A stretch of 64,000 nt of DNA from the NCBI RefSeq assembly GCF_011090385.1, contig NZ_SEWW01000001.1, forward strand, positions 124,001 through 188,000. Reading direction: 5' to 3'. This DNA comes from Aquirufa beregesia. Its GTDB lineage: Bacteria; Bacteroidota; Bacteroidia; Cytophagales; Spirosomataceae. Positions 1 through 6,446 of the stretch are shown here, one piece after another. Each line of letters starts with the position of its first letter. Positions within the stretch are counted from its first letter, which is position 1. Under the pieces are notes generated by a model that had not been told where the DNA came from, did no database searches, and worked only from the letters and a program-made list of their open reading frames with translations. The position numbers and the translations under genes are program-made.

Positions 1-232
1 CGTAGGCAATACCAAATCCTACTACATAAAAGGCTATTCCGCCAAACATGATGTCAATCATGACTTTGGCAATGATACTAACTGCGTTTTTTGAACGGAC
101 AAAGCCTGCTTCTAATAAAGCAAAGCCTCCTTCCATTTGAAAAATGAGCGCTCCACAAAGGGCCACCCAGACAGTATCAATAGCATGTGTAAGTTCGACT
201 TGCTGAGCCGCAAGGGAAATGGTGTTGTTCAT
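1..232 (-). CDS. amt: Ammonium transporter Amt, N-terminal part (runs off window)
   Basis: An ATG on the minus strand opens a frame that stays open to the window edge, giving about 77 residues. It reads MNNTISLAAQQVELTHAIDT and continues through FQMEGGFALLEAGFVRSKN, IIAKVMIDIMFGGIAF and YVVGFGIAY. The EAGFVRSKN block and the following helix are the signature of the Amt/MEP/Rh channel family, which conducts ammonium across the inner membrane. The rest of the gene lies to the left, so a downstream glnK partner cannot be checked. No clear TAnnTTTG element was found upstream. The family call is firm; substrate specificity is inferred from the family. Confidence 0.9.
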   Translation of the reverse strand, partial: MNNTISLAAQQVELTHAIDTVWVALCGALIFQMEGGFALLEAGFVRSKNAVSIIAKVMIDIMFGGIAFYVVGFGIAY

Positions 233-354
233 GGTTTTGTTTCTGTTTTTAACCTTATTTCTGTGAAATTATATTAAAATTTCCGAAATGACTTTATTTT
301 TCAACCTTTAAAACAAAATAATTACATTTTTTACCTAAAATCTATTTGAAAACC

Positions 355-2277
355 ATGTTAAAATCTAAATTTATCGCATTTGCAGTTTTTTTACTGCAAA
401 GCTTAAGTATGTCAATTACTGCTCAACAAGCACCCTTAATTCCTATACCCGTAAAGGCCGAATATCCCCAAGGATTTTATAGTTTACCCAGTCGAGTTAT
501 CATAGCAGCTCCTAAATCTGAAGCCTTACAAGCAGCGGTAAAAAATTTGACGGATCGTTTAGAAAAAACGGCTATGCGCAAGGTTCAAATGCTTTGGGAT
601 GCTAGTTCTCAGGCTGATTTAGCGCATATTCGTCTGGTATTATCTAAACAGTCCTTAGCAAATCTTGGAAATGAGGGGTATACCTTGAGCGTCAATGCCA
701 AGGGAATAGTCATTACTGCCAATAAACCTGCAGGGCTATTTTATGGAATTCAGAGTTTATTGCAATTAATGCCCAAGGAAATAGAGTCCAAACAAACGGT
801 AATTAAACAAACTTGGAAAGTTCCCTTTGCCCAAATAACGGATTATCCTCGTTTTGCTTGGAGGGGATTGATGCTCGATGTAGCTAGACACTTTTTCAAT
901 AAAGACCAAGTGAAGCAGTTCATTGATGAAATGGTGGCTTATAAATACAATATCTTGCACTTTCACTTAACCGACGATGAAGGCTGGAGAGTGGAAATTA
1001 AATCTTTCCCAAATTTGACGAAAAAGGGTGCTTGGAATGTCCCTAAGGTGGGTCGATTTACAGAGTTTTCTAAGCCAGAACCCAATGAACCTCGTACACA
1101 AGGCGGATTTTTTACCAAAGAAGATATTCAAGATATCGTTGCCTATGCCAAAGATCGTTTTGTTAATGTCATGCCGGAAATAGATGTTCCAGGGCATTCC
1201 ATGGCGGCAATAGCATCCTATCCTGAACTTTCCTGTACTCCAGAAGCCGTAAATTATCAAGTGATATCGGGTGAACCTTTTATTGATTGGTCACATGGAC
1301 ATGCTGTAGCTTTGCAAGACAATACCTTATGTCCTGCCAATGAGAAAGTGTATACTTTCTTAGATAAAGTGTTTACGGAGGTTGCCGAAATGTTTCCTTT
1401 TGAATACATCCACATGGGAGGAGACGAATGTCCTAAAAATTATTGGGAAAAGAATCCACAGATATTAGCCATGATGCAAAAGGAGAATCTGAAAACTCCT
1501 CAAGAAGTTCAAGCCTTTTTTACCCGTCGATTGGAAAAAATCATTACTTCCAAAGGAAAGAAAATGATGGGTTGGGATGAGATTTTAGAAGGTGGGGGCT
1601 TACCAAAAAATACGGCTGTGATGTCTTGGAGAGGTATAGCTGGAGGTGTACAAGCCGCTAAAGATGGTCATGAAGTGGTGATGACCCCTAATAATCATGT
1701 GTATGTGGATTTGATGCAAGGGGATGCCGCTATCGAACCTCCTGTGTATGAAACAGTTCGCTTGCGTGATTCTTATGCCTTCAATCCTGTACCAGAGGGG
1801 GTAGATGCCAAACTAGTTAAGGGTGGTCAAGCTAATTTATGGTCAGAACAATTATTTACCTACCGTCATTTGCAGTATATGTTATTTCCTCGTGCCTGGG
1901 CGGTATCTGAAGCGTTGTGGTCACCGCAAGAAAACAGAAATTGGGATAATTTCGTGAGTCGAGTGGAGCATCATTTTGCTCGTTTTGATCAAGCAGAAAA
2001 GAAATATGCTCCAAGTATGTATGATGCCATTATTCAGGTGGGGAAAAATGAACAAGGACAACTATGGGTTGATTTGAGTACAGAAGTCAATCCATTGTCA
2101 GTTCACTATAGTTTTGATTACTCGTATCCAGATAATTTTTATCCGGCTGCTTCAGGTAAAGTAATCATTCCAAAGGATGCCTTGGTGATGCGTATGATTT
2201 CTTACCGAGGTAAAGAAAAAGTAGGCAGAATGATGTCCATTTCCATCGAAGATTTGAAAAAACGTGTAAAAAAATAA
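355..2277 (+). CDS. Secreted beta-N-acetylhexosaminidase, GH20
   Basis: The product removes terminal N-acetylhexosamine from glycans or chitin fragments. I chose the ATG start that gives the signal peptide MLKSKFIAFAVFLLQSLSMS; an upstream TTG in frame would add three residues. A GH20b-like N-terminal domain is followed by the catalytic barrel, with RGLMLDVARHFF, HFHLTDDEGWR and the catalytic Asp-Glu pair in HMGGDE (about residues 357-358). The C-terminal 90 residues form a small beta domain of the type seen in longer Bacteroidota GH20 enzymes. The length of about 640 residues is normal. The next gene, a secreted esterase, starts 4 bp after the stop, so the two are probably co-transcribed. 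Confidence 0.93.
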   Translation: MLKSKFIAFAVFLLQSLSMSITAQQAPLIPIPVKAEYPQGFYSLPSRVIIAAPKSEALQAAVKNLTDRLEKTAMRKVQMLWDASSQADLAHIRLVLSKQSLANLGNEGYTLSVNAKGIVITANKPAGLFYGIQSLLQLMPKEIESKQTVIKQTWKVPFAQITDYPRFAWRGLMLDVARHFFNKDQVKQFIDEMVAYKYNILHFHLTDDEGWRVEIKSFPNLTKKGAWNVPKVGRFTEFSKPEPNEPRTQGGFFTKEDIQDIVAYAKDRFVNVMPEIDVPGHSMAAIASYPELSCTPEAVNYQVISGEPFIDWSHGHAVALQDNTLCPANEKVYTFLDKVFTEVAEMFPFEYIHMGGDECPKNYWEKNPQILAMMQKENLKTPQEVQAFFTRRLEKIITSKGKKMMGWDEILEGGGLPKNTAVMSWRGIAGGVQAAKDGHEVVMTPNNHVYVDLMQGDAAIEPPVYETVRLRDSYAFNPVPEGVDAKLVKGGQANLWSEQLFTYRHLQYMLFPRAWAVSEALWSPQENRNWDNFVSRVEHHFARFDQAEKKYAPSMYDAIIQVGKNEQGQLWVDLSTEVNPLSVHYSFDYSYPDNFYPAASGKVIIPKDALVMRMISYRGKEKVGRMMSISIEDLKKRVKK

Positions 2278-2281
2278 AACC

Positions 2282-3058
2282 ATGAAGAAAATTCTTTTCC
2301 TTTTATGTGGCTTATTCATTAGCCTGGGTGCATTTTCACAAGCTAAATTCGAAAAAAGAGAATTAGCTTTTGGTCCAGACCAAACCTTACCTTATCAGAT
2401 TCTTTATCCTTCAAACATGGAAAAAGGGAAGAAATATCCCGTTATTTTGTTTTTGCATGGGGCTGGTGAAAGAGGAAATGATAATGAAAAACAGTTGACT
2501 CATGGTTCCAAACTGTTTTTGGATCCTAGCAATCAATCCAAATACCCTGCCATAGTCATTTTCCCACAATGTCCAGCTAATTCCTATTGGTCTACGGTCA
2601 AGATTGATCGTAATACTAAGCCAACAAGCTTCGTTTTTGAATATCCGAAAGAACCCAATTGGGCTTTGGCGGCAGCTGTAAGTATAGTTAAGACTTTAGT
2701 GAAAGAAAAAGTAGCCGATAAAAAGCGCTTATACATCATGGGATTGTCCATGGGGGGAATGGGGACATTTGAAGCCATTTCTAGAAACCCTAAAATGTTT
2801 GCTGCTGCAGCGCCTATTTGTGGAGGAGCAGACTTACATTTTGTGAAAAAGTATGCTAAAAGATTGCCTTTGTGGATATTCCATGGGGATGCAGATGCGG
2901 TGGTACCAGTTCGTCATTCTCGCGAAGCGGTTGCTGCTTTAAAGGAAGCAGGTGCAAATCCCACGTATACGGAATACCCAGGTGTAAATCATAATTCATG
3001 GGATAATGCATTTAAAGAACCTGACTTGTTTTCTTGGATGTTTTCGCACAAAAAATAA
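2282..3058 (+). CDS. Secreted alpha/beta-hydrolase (PHB-depolymerase/esterase-like)
   Basis: The protein has a clear signal peptide (MKKILFLLCGLFISLGAFSQ) and an alpha/beta-hydrolase fold. Visible elements are the oxyanion-hole region LHGAGERG, the nucleophile elbow GLSMGGMG (Ser156), the acid in HGDADAVVP and the catalytic His in GVNHNSW (His237). This matches the predicted-peptidase/esterase group related to polyhydroxybutyrate depolymerase and carbohydrate esterases. It lies 4 bp after the GH20 gene, which suggests a role in de-esterifying glycans. The substrate is not evident, and acetyl or feruloyl esters are only possibilities. A terminator-like hairpin follows shortly after the stop. 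Confidence 0.85.
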   Translation: MKKILFLLCGLFISLGAFSQAKFEKRELAFGPDQTLPYQILYPSNMEKGKKYPVILFLHGAGERGNDNEKQLTHGSKLFLDPSNQSKYPAIVIFPQCPANSYWSTVKIDRNTKPTSFVFEYPKEPNWALAAAVSIVKTLVKEKVADKKRLYIMGLSMGGMGTFEAISRNPKMFAAAAPICGGADLHFVKKYAKRLPLWIFHGDADAVVPVRHSREAVAALKEAGANPTYTEYPGVNHNSWDNAFKEPDLFSWMFSHKK

Positions 3059-3068
3059 TACTTAAATT

Positions 3069-3722
3069 ATGCTGTTAAGCATCTTATTATACCTCCAGGT
3101 TGCTTTATTACCTGGAGGTATTTTTAATGTATCAGGGGCATCTACTGCCTCTACCACAAACTATTTACTTGTTAAGAAAGGCTATGTCATGTCCTATGAC
3201 GGAGTTCAAGGGAAAGCGAACTGGGTGGCTTGGACCTTAACAGCTAGGGATATAGGAGATGTGCCTAGATCCAATCGATTTAGGCAAGATGAAGACCTAC
3301 CTAGGCAATTTAAGCGGATAGATGCTGATGATTATAAATACAGTGGATATGATCGAGGGCATTTGTGTAATTCAGAGGATCGATCTTCTTCCTCATTTTT
3401 AAATGCAGAGACTTTTTTAATGTCCAACATGATACCTCAGAGCCCTGAATTAAATCGAGGGCCCTGGGAGCGATTGGAAGCTTATTGTAGGAAATTGGCC
3501 AAAAGAGGACAAAAATTGACTATTTATGCCGGAGGAATTGGAGTGGTAGACAAAATTGGAAATGAAGTGGTCATCCCCAAATATTGCTGGAAAGTAGTCA
3601 TAAGTCCCGAAAAATCATGGTACCTTTTATTTCCCAATTCACATGATTTACATCCAAACTGGCAGACCTTTGCCATTTCTAAATCTACGCTGGAAAAAAT
3701 GACAGGTTTACGTTTTCCCTAA
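3069..3722 (+). CDS. DNA/RNA non-specific endonuclease (NUC1 family), probably exported
   Basis: The NUC1 active site is visible as DRGH (residues 95-98, His98 the expected base), followed by MIPQSPELNRGPW with the metal-binding Asn at about 129. The domain begins near NYLLVKKGYVMSYDG at residue 31. The first 28 residues are hydrophobic and could be a signal peptide, although they lack an initial lysine or arginine. There is no later in-frame start before the domain, so this ATG is kept. That places a perfect 11-bp terminator-like stem inside codons 8-18. The last 4 bp overlap the convergent GH105 gene. The role is probably degradation of extracellular nucleic acid. Confidence 0.85.
   Translation: MLLSILLYLQVALLPGGIFNVSGASTASTTNYLLVKKGYVMSYDGVQGKANWVAWTLTARDIGDVPRSNRFRQDEDLPRQFKRIDADDYKYSGYDRGHLCNSEDRSSSSFLNAETFLMSNMIPQSPELNRGPWERLEAYCRKLAKRGQKLTIYAGGIGVVDKIGNEVVIPKYCWKVVISPEKSWYLLFPNSHDLHPNWQTFAISKSTLEKMTGLRFP
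3090..3126 (+). terminator. Terminator-like hairpin inside the NUC1 reading frame
   Basis: TACCTCCAGGT and ACCTGGAGGTA pair perfectly (11 bp, 9-nt loop), followed immediately by TTTTT. It lies 32 bp after the esterase stop and has the form of an intrinsic terminator. It sits within the first 20 codons of the nuclease gene, so it could end the GH20-esterase transcript and lower read-through into the nuclease gene. Confidence 0.65.
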
Positions 3723-5614
3723 GGTTGTAAGGCCCATTCCATGAGTTTCTTGGCAGCAGGGAAGTTTTCGTATTCCAAAGGAATGCGGCGGTTATTCGTG
3801 TATTCATTGTAAATCCAAGGATCCCCTAAAGCGAATACCCGACCTTTGCCTACTTGGGCTATGGCCATGACACAATGCCCGTTTAAATCTTCAATCGATT
3901 TAGCCGAACCAGATAATTTAATGGTGGAGATTTCTTTGATATAGATTTTTTTCAATCCTTTAAAAACGGGATTATTGGCTTGAATATTCAAAGTCCCTTG
4001 ATGCCAATTTTTACCTTGAACCATGTTTAAATTAGGTCCGACAAACTCCATACCAAACCTTTTGGCTAAGGTATTGAATTTCGGTATTTCGCAATTGGTG
4101 GTATCATTGGCCAATAGAATTAAGGTTCCACCAGCTTTCACCCATTTTTCTATTTCATCCACATCTTGGGCGCGCATGTAGTTGGGTTTGGCCGTTTCTT
4201 TTGGGCTATCTGGATCCACGATGATGTAAACCTTGGCTCCCGCTAAGGTTTTAATCGTAGGTGCTTGAGCTAAACTATCAATTTTAGCTCCCAATTGTTC
4301 CGTTTGAACCCCTAATAACTGAAATCCAGAGTCTTTTCTATCTTCCCAGGTATAATGGAAACGCTCCATGTTTCCCTGTTTGTTTTTACGGAATTCATGG
4401 TTGAAATAATAATCTAACACCACTTTTTTACCTTTTCCTATACCCAATTCTTTGGCAATTTCCATTTCCAAAGAAGCCATAATGAATGGGCCTGCACCCT
4501 TTAAATCATCTGTTTTTACTGGTTCAGACATGTAATAGGCAAAACTGCCGTCGCGGTAGGGAGTGCCGCCTAGTCCTCCCACACTTACCGTTTTCTCTAA
4601 ATGAATATAACCATGAGCATCTTTGGTGATGAATTTTTCAAGGATAGCCGCATAGGCTTTTTGAGAGGCTGTCAGATAGGAGTAGGGAAGATAGCCCTTG
4701 CGAACCCCTTTTGCAAAGGCGTATACGTACATATTGGCACAGGAGGCCTCTAAGTAATTCCCTTTTTGAGTACCTAATGTGGGTAATTGGTACCAAAGTC
4801 CAGTAGATTGATCTTGCACCTTAACTAAAGCTGCGCTCAATTCATTCAATTGCTTGATTAGCATATTTCTTTTGGGATGCTGCTTGGGAAAATAGTCCAA
4901 CACATCTACTAAGGCCATGGCGTACCAACCCATGGCTCTTCCCCAAAAGTTGGGAGATAATCCCGTCTGCTTACTTGCCCAAGCTTGTTTTCTTTCATGG
5001 TCATAGGCATGATACAATAGTCCAGTCTTAGGGTCTTTGGCATTCTTATACATCAATTCAAATTGACGAGCGATATCATCCCAATTATTTTGATGAAAGA
5101 CTTGACTGTATTCAGCATAAAACGGCTCTAACATATATAGACCATCTAACCACATTTGATTGGGATAACGATCTTTATGCCAAAATCCACCTTCTTTCGT
5201 TCTGGGTTGTTTACTGATTTGTAAGCGTAATTGTTCAGCAGCTAATTGGTATTTGTCTTCATTAAGTTCTTGAAATAGAGAAAGTAAAAGTCTACCTGTG
5301 GTGATATTATCTGAATTGAACTCGGAAACTTTATACGTGCGTATTTCCCCCTTCTCATTGATGAAACGGTTAATGTTCTTTTGAATGTATTGAAAATAAG
5401 TAGCGTCACCTGTTCTTTGATAGACATTTTCAAGCGCTTTTAGGAACAACCCTTGTTCATAATCCCATGTGGCAGGTTTTCCTATTTTGACTTGAATGGA
5501 ATCTTGATGTGTATGCATCAAAGATTGGGCCATTTGGATAGAATAAGGGTTGTTTTGTGCCGATGCAGGAACTAAAAAAACATAGCAAAGTATACCTAAA
5601 AGTGCTTTTTTCAT
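3719..5614 (-). CDS. GH105/GH88-type unsaturated glucuronyl (rhamnogalacturonyl) hydrolase with extra C-terminal domain
   Basis: The protein is secreted: the ATG chosen gives the signal peptide MKKALLGILCYVFLVPASAQ. A longer frame upstream overlaps kduI and is unlikely. Residues of about 25-400 form an (alpha/alpha)6 barrel of the YteR/YesR type, with WLDGLYMLEPF, WGRAMGWYAMALVDVLD and GTPYRDGSFAYYMSE. This family removes the unsaturated uronic acid left by rhamnogalacturonan lyases. About 225 further residues contain VYIIVDPDSP, WVKAGGTLILLAND and GKGRVFALGDPWIYNEY, which resemble a DUF4350/glutamine-amidotransferase-like fold. The kduI stop is 1 bp upstream, so the pair forms an operon: this enzyme releases the unsaturated uronate and KduI handles its keto form. 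Confidence 0.88.
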   Translation of the reverse strand: MKKALLGILCYVFLVPASAQNNPYSIQMAQSLMHTHQDSIQVKIGKPATWDYEQGLFLKALENVYQRTGDATYFQYIQKNINRFINEKGEIRTYKVSEFNSDNITTGRLLLSLFQELNEDKYQLAAEQLRLQISKQPRTKEGGFWHKDRYPNQMWLDGLYMLEPFYAEYSQVFHQNNWDDIARQFELMYKNAKDPKTGLLYHAYDHERKQAWASKQTGLSPNFWGRAMGWYAMALVDVLDYFPKQHPKRNMLIKQLNELSAALVKVQDQSTGLWYQLPTLGTQKGNYLEASCANMYVYAFAKGVRKGYLPYSYLTASQKAYAAILEKFITKDAHGYIHLEKTVSVGGLGGTPYRDGSFAYYMSEPVKTDDLKGAGPFIMASLEMEIAKELGIGKGKKVVLDYYFNHEFRKNKQGNMERFHYTWEDRKDSGFQLLGVQTEQLGAKIDSLAQAPTIKTLAGAKVYIIVDPDSPKETAKPNYMRAQDVDEIEKWVKAGGTLILLANDTTNCEIPKFNTLAKRFGMEFVGPNLNMVQGKNWHQGTLNIQANNPVFKGLKKIYIKEISTIKLSGSAKSIEDLNGHCVMAIAQVGKGRVFALGDPWIYNEYTNNRRIPLEYENFPAAKKLMEWALQP

Positions 5615-5615
5615 A

Positions 5616-6446
5616 TTAACGTAGTTCAGTAATTTCAGAAAAATCCATATCAGTATAGTCTTTATTTTCTCCTGCCATTCCCCAAATAAAGGAATAGTTT
5701 TGTGTGCCAGCACCGCTATGAATAGACCAAGGTGGGGAAATCACGGCTTGATGATTTTGTACCCAGATATGTTTTGTTTCTTTGGTTTCACCCATTAAAT
5801 GTAAAACGGCTTGACCAGGTTTTACGTCAAAATACAAATAGGCTTCCATTCTGCGGTCATGCACGTGAGCAGGCATGGTATTCCAGATGGATCCTGGTTC
5901 TAAGATGGTTAAACCCATCACCAATTGACAGGACTGTATCCCATCTTGATGAATGTATTTATAGATGGTTCTATGATTGGAATTTTCCAATGAACCTACA
6001 TTCACCGTCACGACATTTTCTCGGTCTAATTTTTCATTAGGGTAAATAGCATGTGCCGGAGAAGATAGCAAATAGAACTGTGCAGGTTCGTTGGCTGAAA
6101 CAGAACTAAAACTAACGTCTTGCGTTCCCTTACCAAGATATACGGCACTTAATTTAGATATTTCAAAGCTTTGTCCATCTGCTTTTACGATTCCCGGACC
6201 ACCCACGTTGATAATCCCCAATTCTCTACGCTCAAGGAAATAATTGGCCTTTAATTTTTCAGGGTTAGGTAATTTGATTTCTCCTAATACCGGCATAGCT
6301 CCACCGATGATCATACGATCATATATGGAATAGGTTAAGTGAATTTGATTCGCTTCAAATATATTTTCAACCAAAAAATGGTCCCTTAATTCTTGATTAG
6401 TGAAGGTGGATACTTCTTTTCTACTCGCCTCAAATCGATAGTTCAT
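5616..6446 (-). CDS. kduI: 5-dehydro-4-deoxy-D-glucuronate isomerase (KduI)
   Basis: KduI converts 5-keto-4-deoxyuronate to 2,5-diketo-3-deoxygluconate in pectin and other uronate catabolism. The length of 276 residues is standard. The zinc-binding residues are visible: His194, His196 and Glu201 in AHVHDRRMEAY, and His243 in SIHSGAG. The C-terminus carries the usual WGMAGEN and DYTDMD stretch. It is first in a two-gene operon with the GH105 gene, whose start follows by 1 bp. No kduD was seen in the window. Confidence 0.96.
   Translation of the reverse strand: MNYRFEASRKEVSTFTNQELRDHFLVENIFEANQIHLTYSIYDRMIIGGAMPVLGEIKLPNPEKLKANYFLERRELGIINVGGPGIVKADGQSFEISKLSAVYLGKGTQDVSFSSVSANEPAQFYLLSSPAHAIYPNEKLDRENVVTVNVGSLENSNHRTIYKYIHQDGIQSCQLVMGLTILEPGSIWNTMPAHVHDRRMEAYLYFDVKPGQAVLHLMGETKETKHIWVQNHQAVISPPWSIHSGAGTQNYSFIWGMAGENKDYTDMDFSEITELR

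Follow-up and report, generated by a model that had tools for sequence, protein, structure and literature searches.

Locus and gene layout

Does a hairpin with a terminator-like tail that lies inside the first codons of a nuclease gene serve the genes upstream of it? The question arises in a 64-kb stretch of an Aquirufa genome of 3.23 Mb (C10:124001-188000), which is called the window throughout. A hexosaminidase, an esterase and the nuclease are arranged head to tail, the hexosaminidase being the first gene of a putative operon. The genes concerned are:

355-2277, + strand, GH20 beta-hexosaminidase (PF00728, 6.4e-115); ATG at 355, with a longer TTG form from 346 in the ORF list
2282-3058, + strand, alpha/beta-hydrolase (esterase), from the ORF and a profile search, immediately 5' of the nuclease
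3069-3722, + strand, NUC1-type DNA/RNA non-specific endonuclease of 217 aa with a hydrophobic N-terminus (PF01223, 9.6e-47)
3719-5713, - strand, GH88 gene, convergent, its stop codon overlapping the nuclease stop

The esterase stop at 3058 and the nuclease ATG at 3069 are separated by a 10 bp gap, and from this layout we infer co-transcription. ATG 3069 is the earliest possible start because an in-frame TAA occupies 3063-3065. The next in-frame ATG is codon 41. Since it lies within GYVMSYDG, a stretch common to orthologues, no usable later start was seen. The PF01223 match covers residues 26-216, in agreement with the first-pass annotation, in which no later start precedes the conserved domain. 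A start-codon error was rejected on these grounds and on the hydrophobic leader followed by N(I/V)SGA, which is common to the lineages described below. An out-of-frame ATG at 3127, after GGAGGT, was also considered and was dropped, as it is missing in L004, L005 and L006. At the far end of the nuclease the overlapping GH88 stop leaves no space for an ordinary terminator.

Positions 1-3400 were scanned with a two-part promoter motif of the Bacteroidota type. It matched only at 1283 and 1287, two overlapping sites inside the hexosaminidase, and an own promoter for the nuclease, raised earlier as one route to its expression, was therefore not supported. The start codon can itself pair in a small 5-bp hairpin (3069-3082, ATGCT-GTTA-AGCAT), which wobble pairs keep possible in six close species. 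This structure is weak and separate from the main hairpin.

Anatomy of the hairpin

The main hairpin occupies nt 21-53 of the nuclease ORF (codons 7-18) and begins 31 nt past the esterase stop. Its parts are:

3089-3100, + strand, 5' arm, ATACCTCCAGGT; codons 7-11; 3090-3100 identical in 6/6 close species
3101-3109, + strand, loop of 9 nt, TGCTTTATT; contains both silently varying codon positions of codons 8-20
3110-3121, + strand, 3' arm, ACCTGGAGGTAT; codons 14-18; identical in 6/6 close species
3121-3125, + strand, T5 run, terminator-like tail, within GGT ATT TTT AAT

The stem consists of 12 perfect pairs, six of them G-C, and the hairpin has a predicted energy of -19.4 kcal/mol. The first T of the run is paired with A3089 and the other four follow the stem. 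A perfect stem plus T5 in the first codons of the nuclease had been noted earlier and was found as described, except that the 11 bp then given omits the outermost A-T pair.

The predicted fold of 3040-3170 is -34.8 kcal/mol (z -4.8), which none of 200 shuffles equalled. When codons 5-25 were recoded synonymously with the protein held fixed, only 5 of 1000 sequences folded as well. A search for the inverted repeat gave a single copy in the window (expected 0.00), and its exact pattern was likewise single in the genome; a repeat element was rejected on that basis. A known RNA family was likewise dropped, as no Rfam family reached its cut-off. Excess structure ranked 2nd among 368 gene starts of the same contig. 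It ranked 11th among 707 when the window was slightly lengthened, the number of shuffles reduced and more of the sequence included, so the rank depends on window and sample. The hairpin is absent from the list of a generic terminator scan, by our reading because the scan accepts loops of at most 8.

In anatomy, the hairpin combines a stable G+C-containing stem with a U-run directly after it in the window genome, as expected of an intrinsic terminator, and we predict that function for it. It also resembles a coupled attenuator in that the stem lies inside a translated ORF, where a ribosome could open it, with the start 10 bp after the upstream stop. With regard to an alternative antiterminator pairing or a regulatory signal, the predicted fold gave only the weak, separate 5-bp hairpin at the start codon.

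Conservation in close species

Six close species, with nuclease proteins 87-100% identical, form lineage A. All six have the same letters at positions 3090-3100 and 3110-3125, which make up the inner 11 pairs and the T-run; the outermost pair is missing in L006. Of the 13 degenerate codons among codons 8-20, two vary silently and both are loop codons; for the whole gene the figure is 118 of 157. Codons 8-20 are the lowest 13-codon window of the gene for silent variation (binomial about 1e-5, with the window chosen as the lowest). No species departs from the two arm codons that are uncommon in the genome, CTC (3% of Leu) and CAG (21% of Gln); the remaining arm codons are mostly common ones. The T-run codons ATT TTT AAT are silent-invariant in 6/6 species, and each is also the codon used most for its residue. 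Judged by these sequences, the hairpin is apparently kept by selection at the DNA level and is not a by-product of the protein.

Orthologues across the genus

Orthologues were sought in 38 Aquirufa genomes, our own included; the named ones include A. ecclesiirivi, A. nivalisilvae, A. rosea and A. aurantiipilula. All 38 match the nuclease, G003 and G032 only through a distant paralogue (about 31%). An orthologue is present in 36 genomes and its N-terminus is visible in 35. A tree of 34 rows, made with the first 40 residues omitted and L078 and L079 left out, gave four lineages, each one side of a tree branch, with support of only 82/81 for B. Lineages A, B, C and D hold 6, 3, 10 and 16 of the 35 N-termini.

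Each lineage has its own hairpin. Lineage B carries CCTGCAGGT-ACT-ACCTGTGGG with TTTTT, and lineage C carries CTACAGG...CCTGTAG. The lineage D hairpin, GGGGTGCCC-AATATTTC-GGGCGCCTC, lies a few codons later and has no T-run, and the LQV segment of the protein is missing there. The T-run is present in 12/35 orthologues (A 6/6, B 3/3, C 3/10, D 0/16) and absent in 23, so the terminator reading fits A, B and part of C and is not the common function. These comparisons bear on the first-pass annotation, which took the element for an intrinsic terminator ending the upstream operon. Its anatomy and its position, from which it could end a hexosaminidase-esterase transcript, agree with that interpretation, but the T-run limits it to part of the genus. 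A comparison of the stem at the DNA level had been proposed as a check; signs of selection were seen across the six lineage A species, but the exact hairpin occurs in 6/35 orthologues, all of one lineage. Orthologues that keep the signal-like peptide and lack the hairpin, named in advance as counter-evidence, do exist, namely the 16 of lineage D with their hydrophobic leader, yet these have another hairpin in almost the same place. Overall the observation was confirmed, and the interpretation is partly supported and has been widened.

The recoding test was applied to the N-termini singly. In 29/33 in-genus orthologues no more than 50 of 1000 recodings were as stable (A 6/6, B 3/3, C 7/10, D 13/14); L010, L011, L015 and L026 missed the 5% level. 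These counts exclude L023, whose N-terminus is cut by a contig end, and the outgroup L033, and L149 and L150 entered only the sliding windows. For the latter, 28 windows were placed along the gene (n = 6, 2, 9 and 16 for A to D, L078 and L079 left out). Codons 5-25 were the lowest window in A, B and C (mean z -3.0, -3.4 and -2.8). Lineage D was lowest at codons 12-32 (mean z -3.0), with codons 5-25 second, also at -3.0.

Covariation evidence from these alignments is mixed overall. In lineage D, cells with two-sided change numbered 11 vs 4.7 in shuffles (0/500 as high) and the covariation score was 0.163 vs 0.068 (0/500), both also above all slid controls. Pairs with two-sided change (4 vs 2.9; 128/500) and pair types (6 vs 6.0; 337/500) did not stand out from the shuffles, and the outer pairs of this hairpin are often open. 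Lineages B and C together had no two-sided change, only one-sided change of the G-U type, and structure not above shuffles.

The position of the element is steadier than its letters. In 33 loci (L078 and L079 left out), the first paired base lies 17-46 nt into the nuclease gene and the nuclease ATG lies at -4 to +10 relative to the upstream stop. By C-terminal peptides, the nuclease is preceded by the esterase in A, B and C and in 7/16 lineage D loci; in the remaining nine D loci the hexosaminidase precedes it. An ordinary terminator-like hairpin follows the nuclease in lineage B (2 loci examined) and in the D loci L017, L019, L025, L028 and L029. Lineage A offers no space for a terminator behind the nuclease. 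Nine other D loci, whose ends are convergent as in A, lack both an in-gene T-run and an ordinary terminator after the nuclease. These nine contradict, as a general rule, the idea that the terminator was displaced into the gene because space was lacking, and there is no neat trade-off between the in-gene hairpin tail and a downstream terminator. As far as these alignments go, letters are replaced between lineages while a structure persists; the hairpin is the common feature and the terminator tail is optional.

Outside the genus, the nuclease codons of Sandaracinomonas (L033) have no excess structure, as 602 of 1000 recodings were as stable. A long gap lies 5' of that nuclease and contains AACTTTC and GAAAGTT repeats that are able to pair. 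In lineage C (L009, L011-L016, L018; for example G010:C20:12428-12519) a palindromic REP-like repeat lies between the nuclease and the GH88 gene. It has 46 matches in G010, many of them both strands of one place, and none in G000, G009 or G011.

Similar elements at other tight junctions

Terminator-like elements in the sense coding strand, defined by at most -14 kcal/mol and at least 5 T of 6, were counted in 864 kb of this contig. The opening ~100 nt of 707 genes (70.7 kb) contained four, and the other 713 kb of coding sequence three. The same criteria applied to the antisense strand gave one early element and nine elsewhere. On the sense strand a threshold of -12 kcal/mol gave 4 early and 6 elsewhere, and removal of the T demand gave 11 and 61. 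Gene starts are T-rich, with T-rich windows 1.48-fold more frequent in the first 100 nt; allowing for this, four early elements of seven has p about 0.007. In a second genome, G011 of lineage D, there were 3 early and 4 other elements. The early ones are probably, at least in part, miscalled starts, because their first positions range from 9 nt ahead of the called ATG to 5 nt past it. A class of such elements at gene starts is therefore regarded as likely, short of established.

Besides the nuclease, the early elements of the window genome lie in a VWA-like membrane gene that follows fabG, in a DUF421-like gene and in an RsmE-like one. The distances of these four genes from their upstream neighbours are -1, 10, 1 and 2 nt, with 10 nt at the nuclease; 282 of the 707 genes begin within 40 nt of an upstream gene. 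The names DUF421-like, RsmE-like and, below, MobA-like are putative and reflect sequence resemblance.

The fabG/VWA junction (G000:C10:269534-271348) is judged from its sequences to be the strongest sibling of the nuclease hairpin. Stop and start overlap there (TAATG), and 16 of 17 loci (L151/L172, L173-L183, L186-L189, with L184 left out of this reading) have a hairpin plus T6-8 at codons ~9-22; the 17th is a fragment without its N-terminus. The A-lineage letters are largely unlike those of B and C, and the T-run is maintained through amino-acid changes. In the recoding set, in which the L186 row was taken from a wrong ATG, 0 of 500 recodings were as stable in 6/6 A loci; L179 was weak (169/500). 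In 22 loci of other genera, each read from the earliest ATG of its longest ORF and uncertain in its start, the Aquirufa hairpin-plus-T pattern was not seen by eye; some fold strongly or have a T-run.

The DUF421-like gene (G000:C10:661449-661961, - strand) begins 1 bp after its neighbour and carries AATAGCCGTC...GGCGGCTATT in codons 11-22. The DNA of this hairpin is nearly unchanged in 8/8 genomes, our own included (L199-L206), down to 70% protein identity. At G022:C1:104273-104783 the gene matches as two pieces with internal stops. Some 90 nt into the MobA-like gene (G000:C10:76453-77034; L215-L220), which follows a TAATG overlap, lies the hairpin GGAGCTTGCAGG...GCAAGCTCC, with a compensatory double change in L220.

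It is possible, though we put it at below an even chance, that Aquirufa recurrently hides operon 3'-end elements, each a hairpin and often T-tailed, within the opening codons of the gene that follows at a tight junction, and that the nuclease, fabG/VWA, DUF421-like and RsmE-like hairpins belong to one class. With the same reserve, the place of such elements would be fixed while their letters are largely replaced between lineages, at the cost of uncommon codons.

Proposed function of the hairpin

We lean, by a modest degree, towards an RNA hairpin that is selected in the first codons of the operon's last gene and sets the 3' end of the mRNA of the preceding genes. In lineage A, RNA polymerase leaving the esterase could stop at the T-run if the hairpin forms. 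A ribosome that finishes the esterase and starts the nuclease 10 bp on would cover or unfold the 5' arm, and transcription would then continue. The lineage A element would thus be an intrinsic terminator that is leaky or ribosome-opened. In relatives without the T-run, the hairpin may block exonucleases working back from an end made by Rho, which is encoded in the genome, or by an RNase. Either route would give the upstream mRNA a defined 3' end and hold nuclease output below that of the preceding enzymes, and the nuclease would be made only together with them.

The chief competitor is a hairpin that protects 3' ends in all lineages and terminates in none. It would block 3'-5' exonucleases after cleavage or downstream Rho termination and so stabilise the hexosaminidase-esterase mRNA, with the lineage A T-run incidental to Ile-Phe-Asn codons. 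Retention of the hairpin across lineages when the T-run is not retained, the presence of Rho and the precedents in PMC9239205 and PMC5927463 give this proposal a real, if minority, chance. It sits less well with the silent invariance of ATT TTT AAT in all six lineage A species (though these are the commonest codons for their residues) and with the fabG/VWA T-run, which survives amino-acid changes. An effect on translation is unlikely. Here the hairpin, just past the footprint of the initiating ribosome, would slow initiation on the nuclease or the first steps of its elongation, to set dosage or the timing of export; the distance of 17-46 nt to the first paired base, the overlap with the hydrophobic leader and the pairing of the lineage A start codon at 3069-3082 are all compatible with it. 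The lineage A T-run and the gene-start excess of T-tailed hairpins are left unexplained, however, and the RsmE-like and MobA-like genes carry a similar hairpin where export is not expected.

Could the structure simply follow from the peptide (LQV...LPGG) and codon bias, with no function? Q-V and L-P codons readily give CAGGT and ACCTG, and gene starts are T-rich, but synonymous recodings seldom match the hairpin, uncommon codons are retained, and four lineages each peak there with differing letters, so that this origin is very improbable. Least probable of all is a DNA operator with a regulator bound to paired ACCTNNAGGT-like sites. Each arm is nearly palindromic and the arm starts are about 19 bp apart, but arm letters and spacing change in B, C and D, and in 864 kb of contig ACCTCCAGGT occurs once and ACCTGGAGGT twice, none of them intergenic.

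If the 3'-end reading holds, a regulatory RNA element and a leader peptide share codons, and the element evolves by replacement while its place stays constant. Such junctions would be test cases for transcription-translation coupling in Bacteroidota. Terminator finders that mask coding sequence or restrict loops can miss operon ends of this kind.

Comparison with known systems

No report of such elements in Aquirufa was found among the papers that the searches listed; those that name Aquirufa are mostly on taxonomy and ecology. PMC13323073 and PMC9723704 contributed nothing decisive. Many 3' ends lie inside ORFs in E. coli and Borrelia (PMC7815308, PMC10319736), and in an archaeon internal termination sets the levels of operon genes (PMC10450193).

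The nearest likeness is to the E. coli gal operon. As described in PMC9239205, when translation of galT does not get under way, Rho terminates transcription and a hairpin in galT marks the end of the galE mRNA. In gal, and by our proposal in Aquirufa too, the upstream mRNA has its 3' end marked by a hairpin near the beginning of the following cistron, and the outcome depends on whether translation of that cistron starts; the function has been demonstrated for the galE-galT E-hairpin. The gal end involves Rho and exonuclease trimming and lies about 130 nt past the stop, whereas in Aquirufa the hairpin begins 31 nt past it and, in lineage A, is followed by a T-run of its own.

In differentially decaying operons of E. 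coli, protective structures are generally coded inside genes and are often conserved (PMC5927463). The Aquirufa hairpin is likewise conserved in a coding region at a junction. The E. coli work used decay assays and 3'-end mapping, whereas the Aquirufa case, in Bacteroidota, comes from sequence comparison and its hairpins differ by lineage.

Ribosomes suppress intrinsic terminators inside ORFs, as reported for rsxC, narY and a pyrL reporter in PMC5021804. Those sites resemble the lineage A element in having a hairpin and U-run in an ORF, where a leading ribosome should prevent termination. They were picked downstream of polyproline stalls, whereas the Aquirufa site lies in the first 18 codons of an abutting gene.
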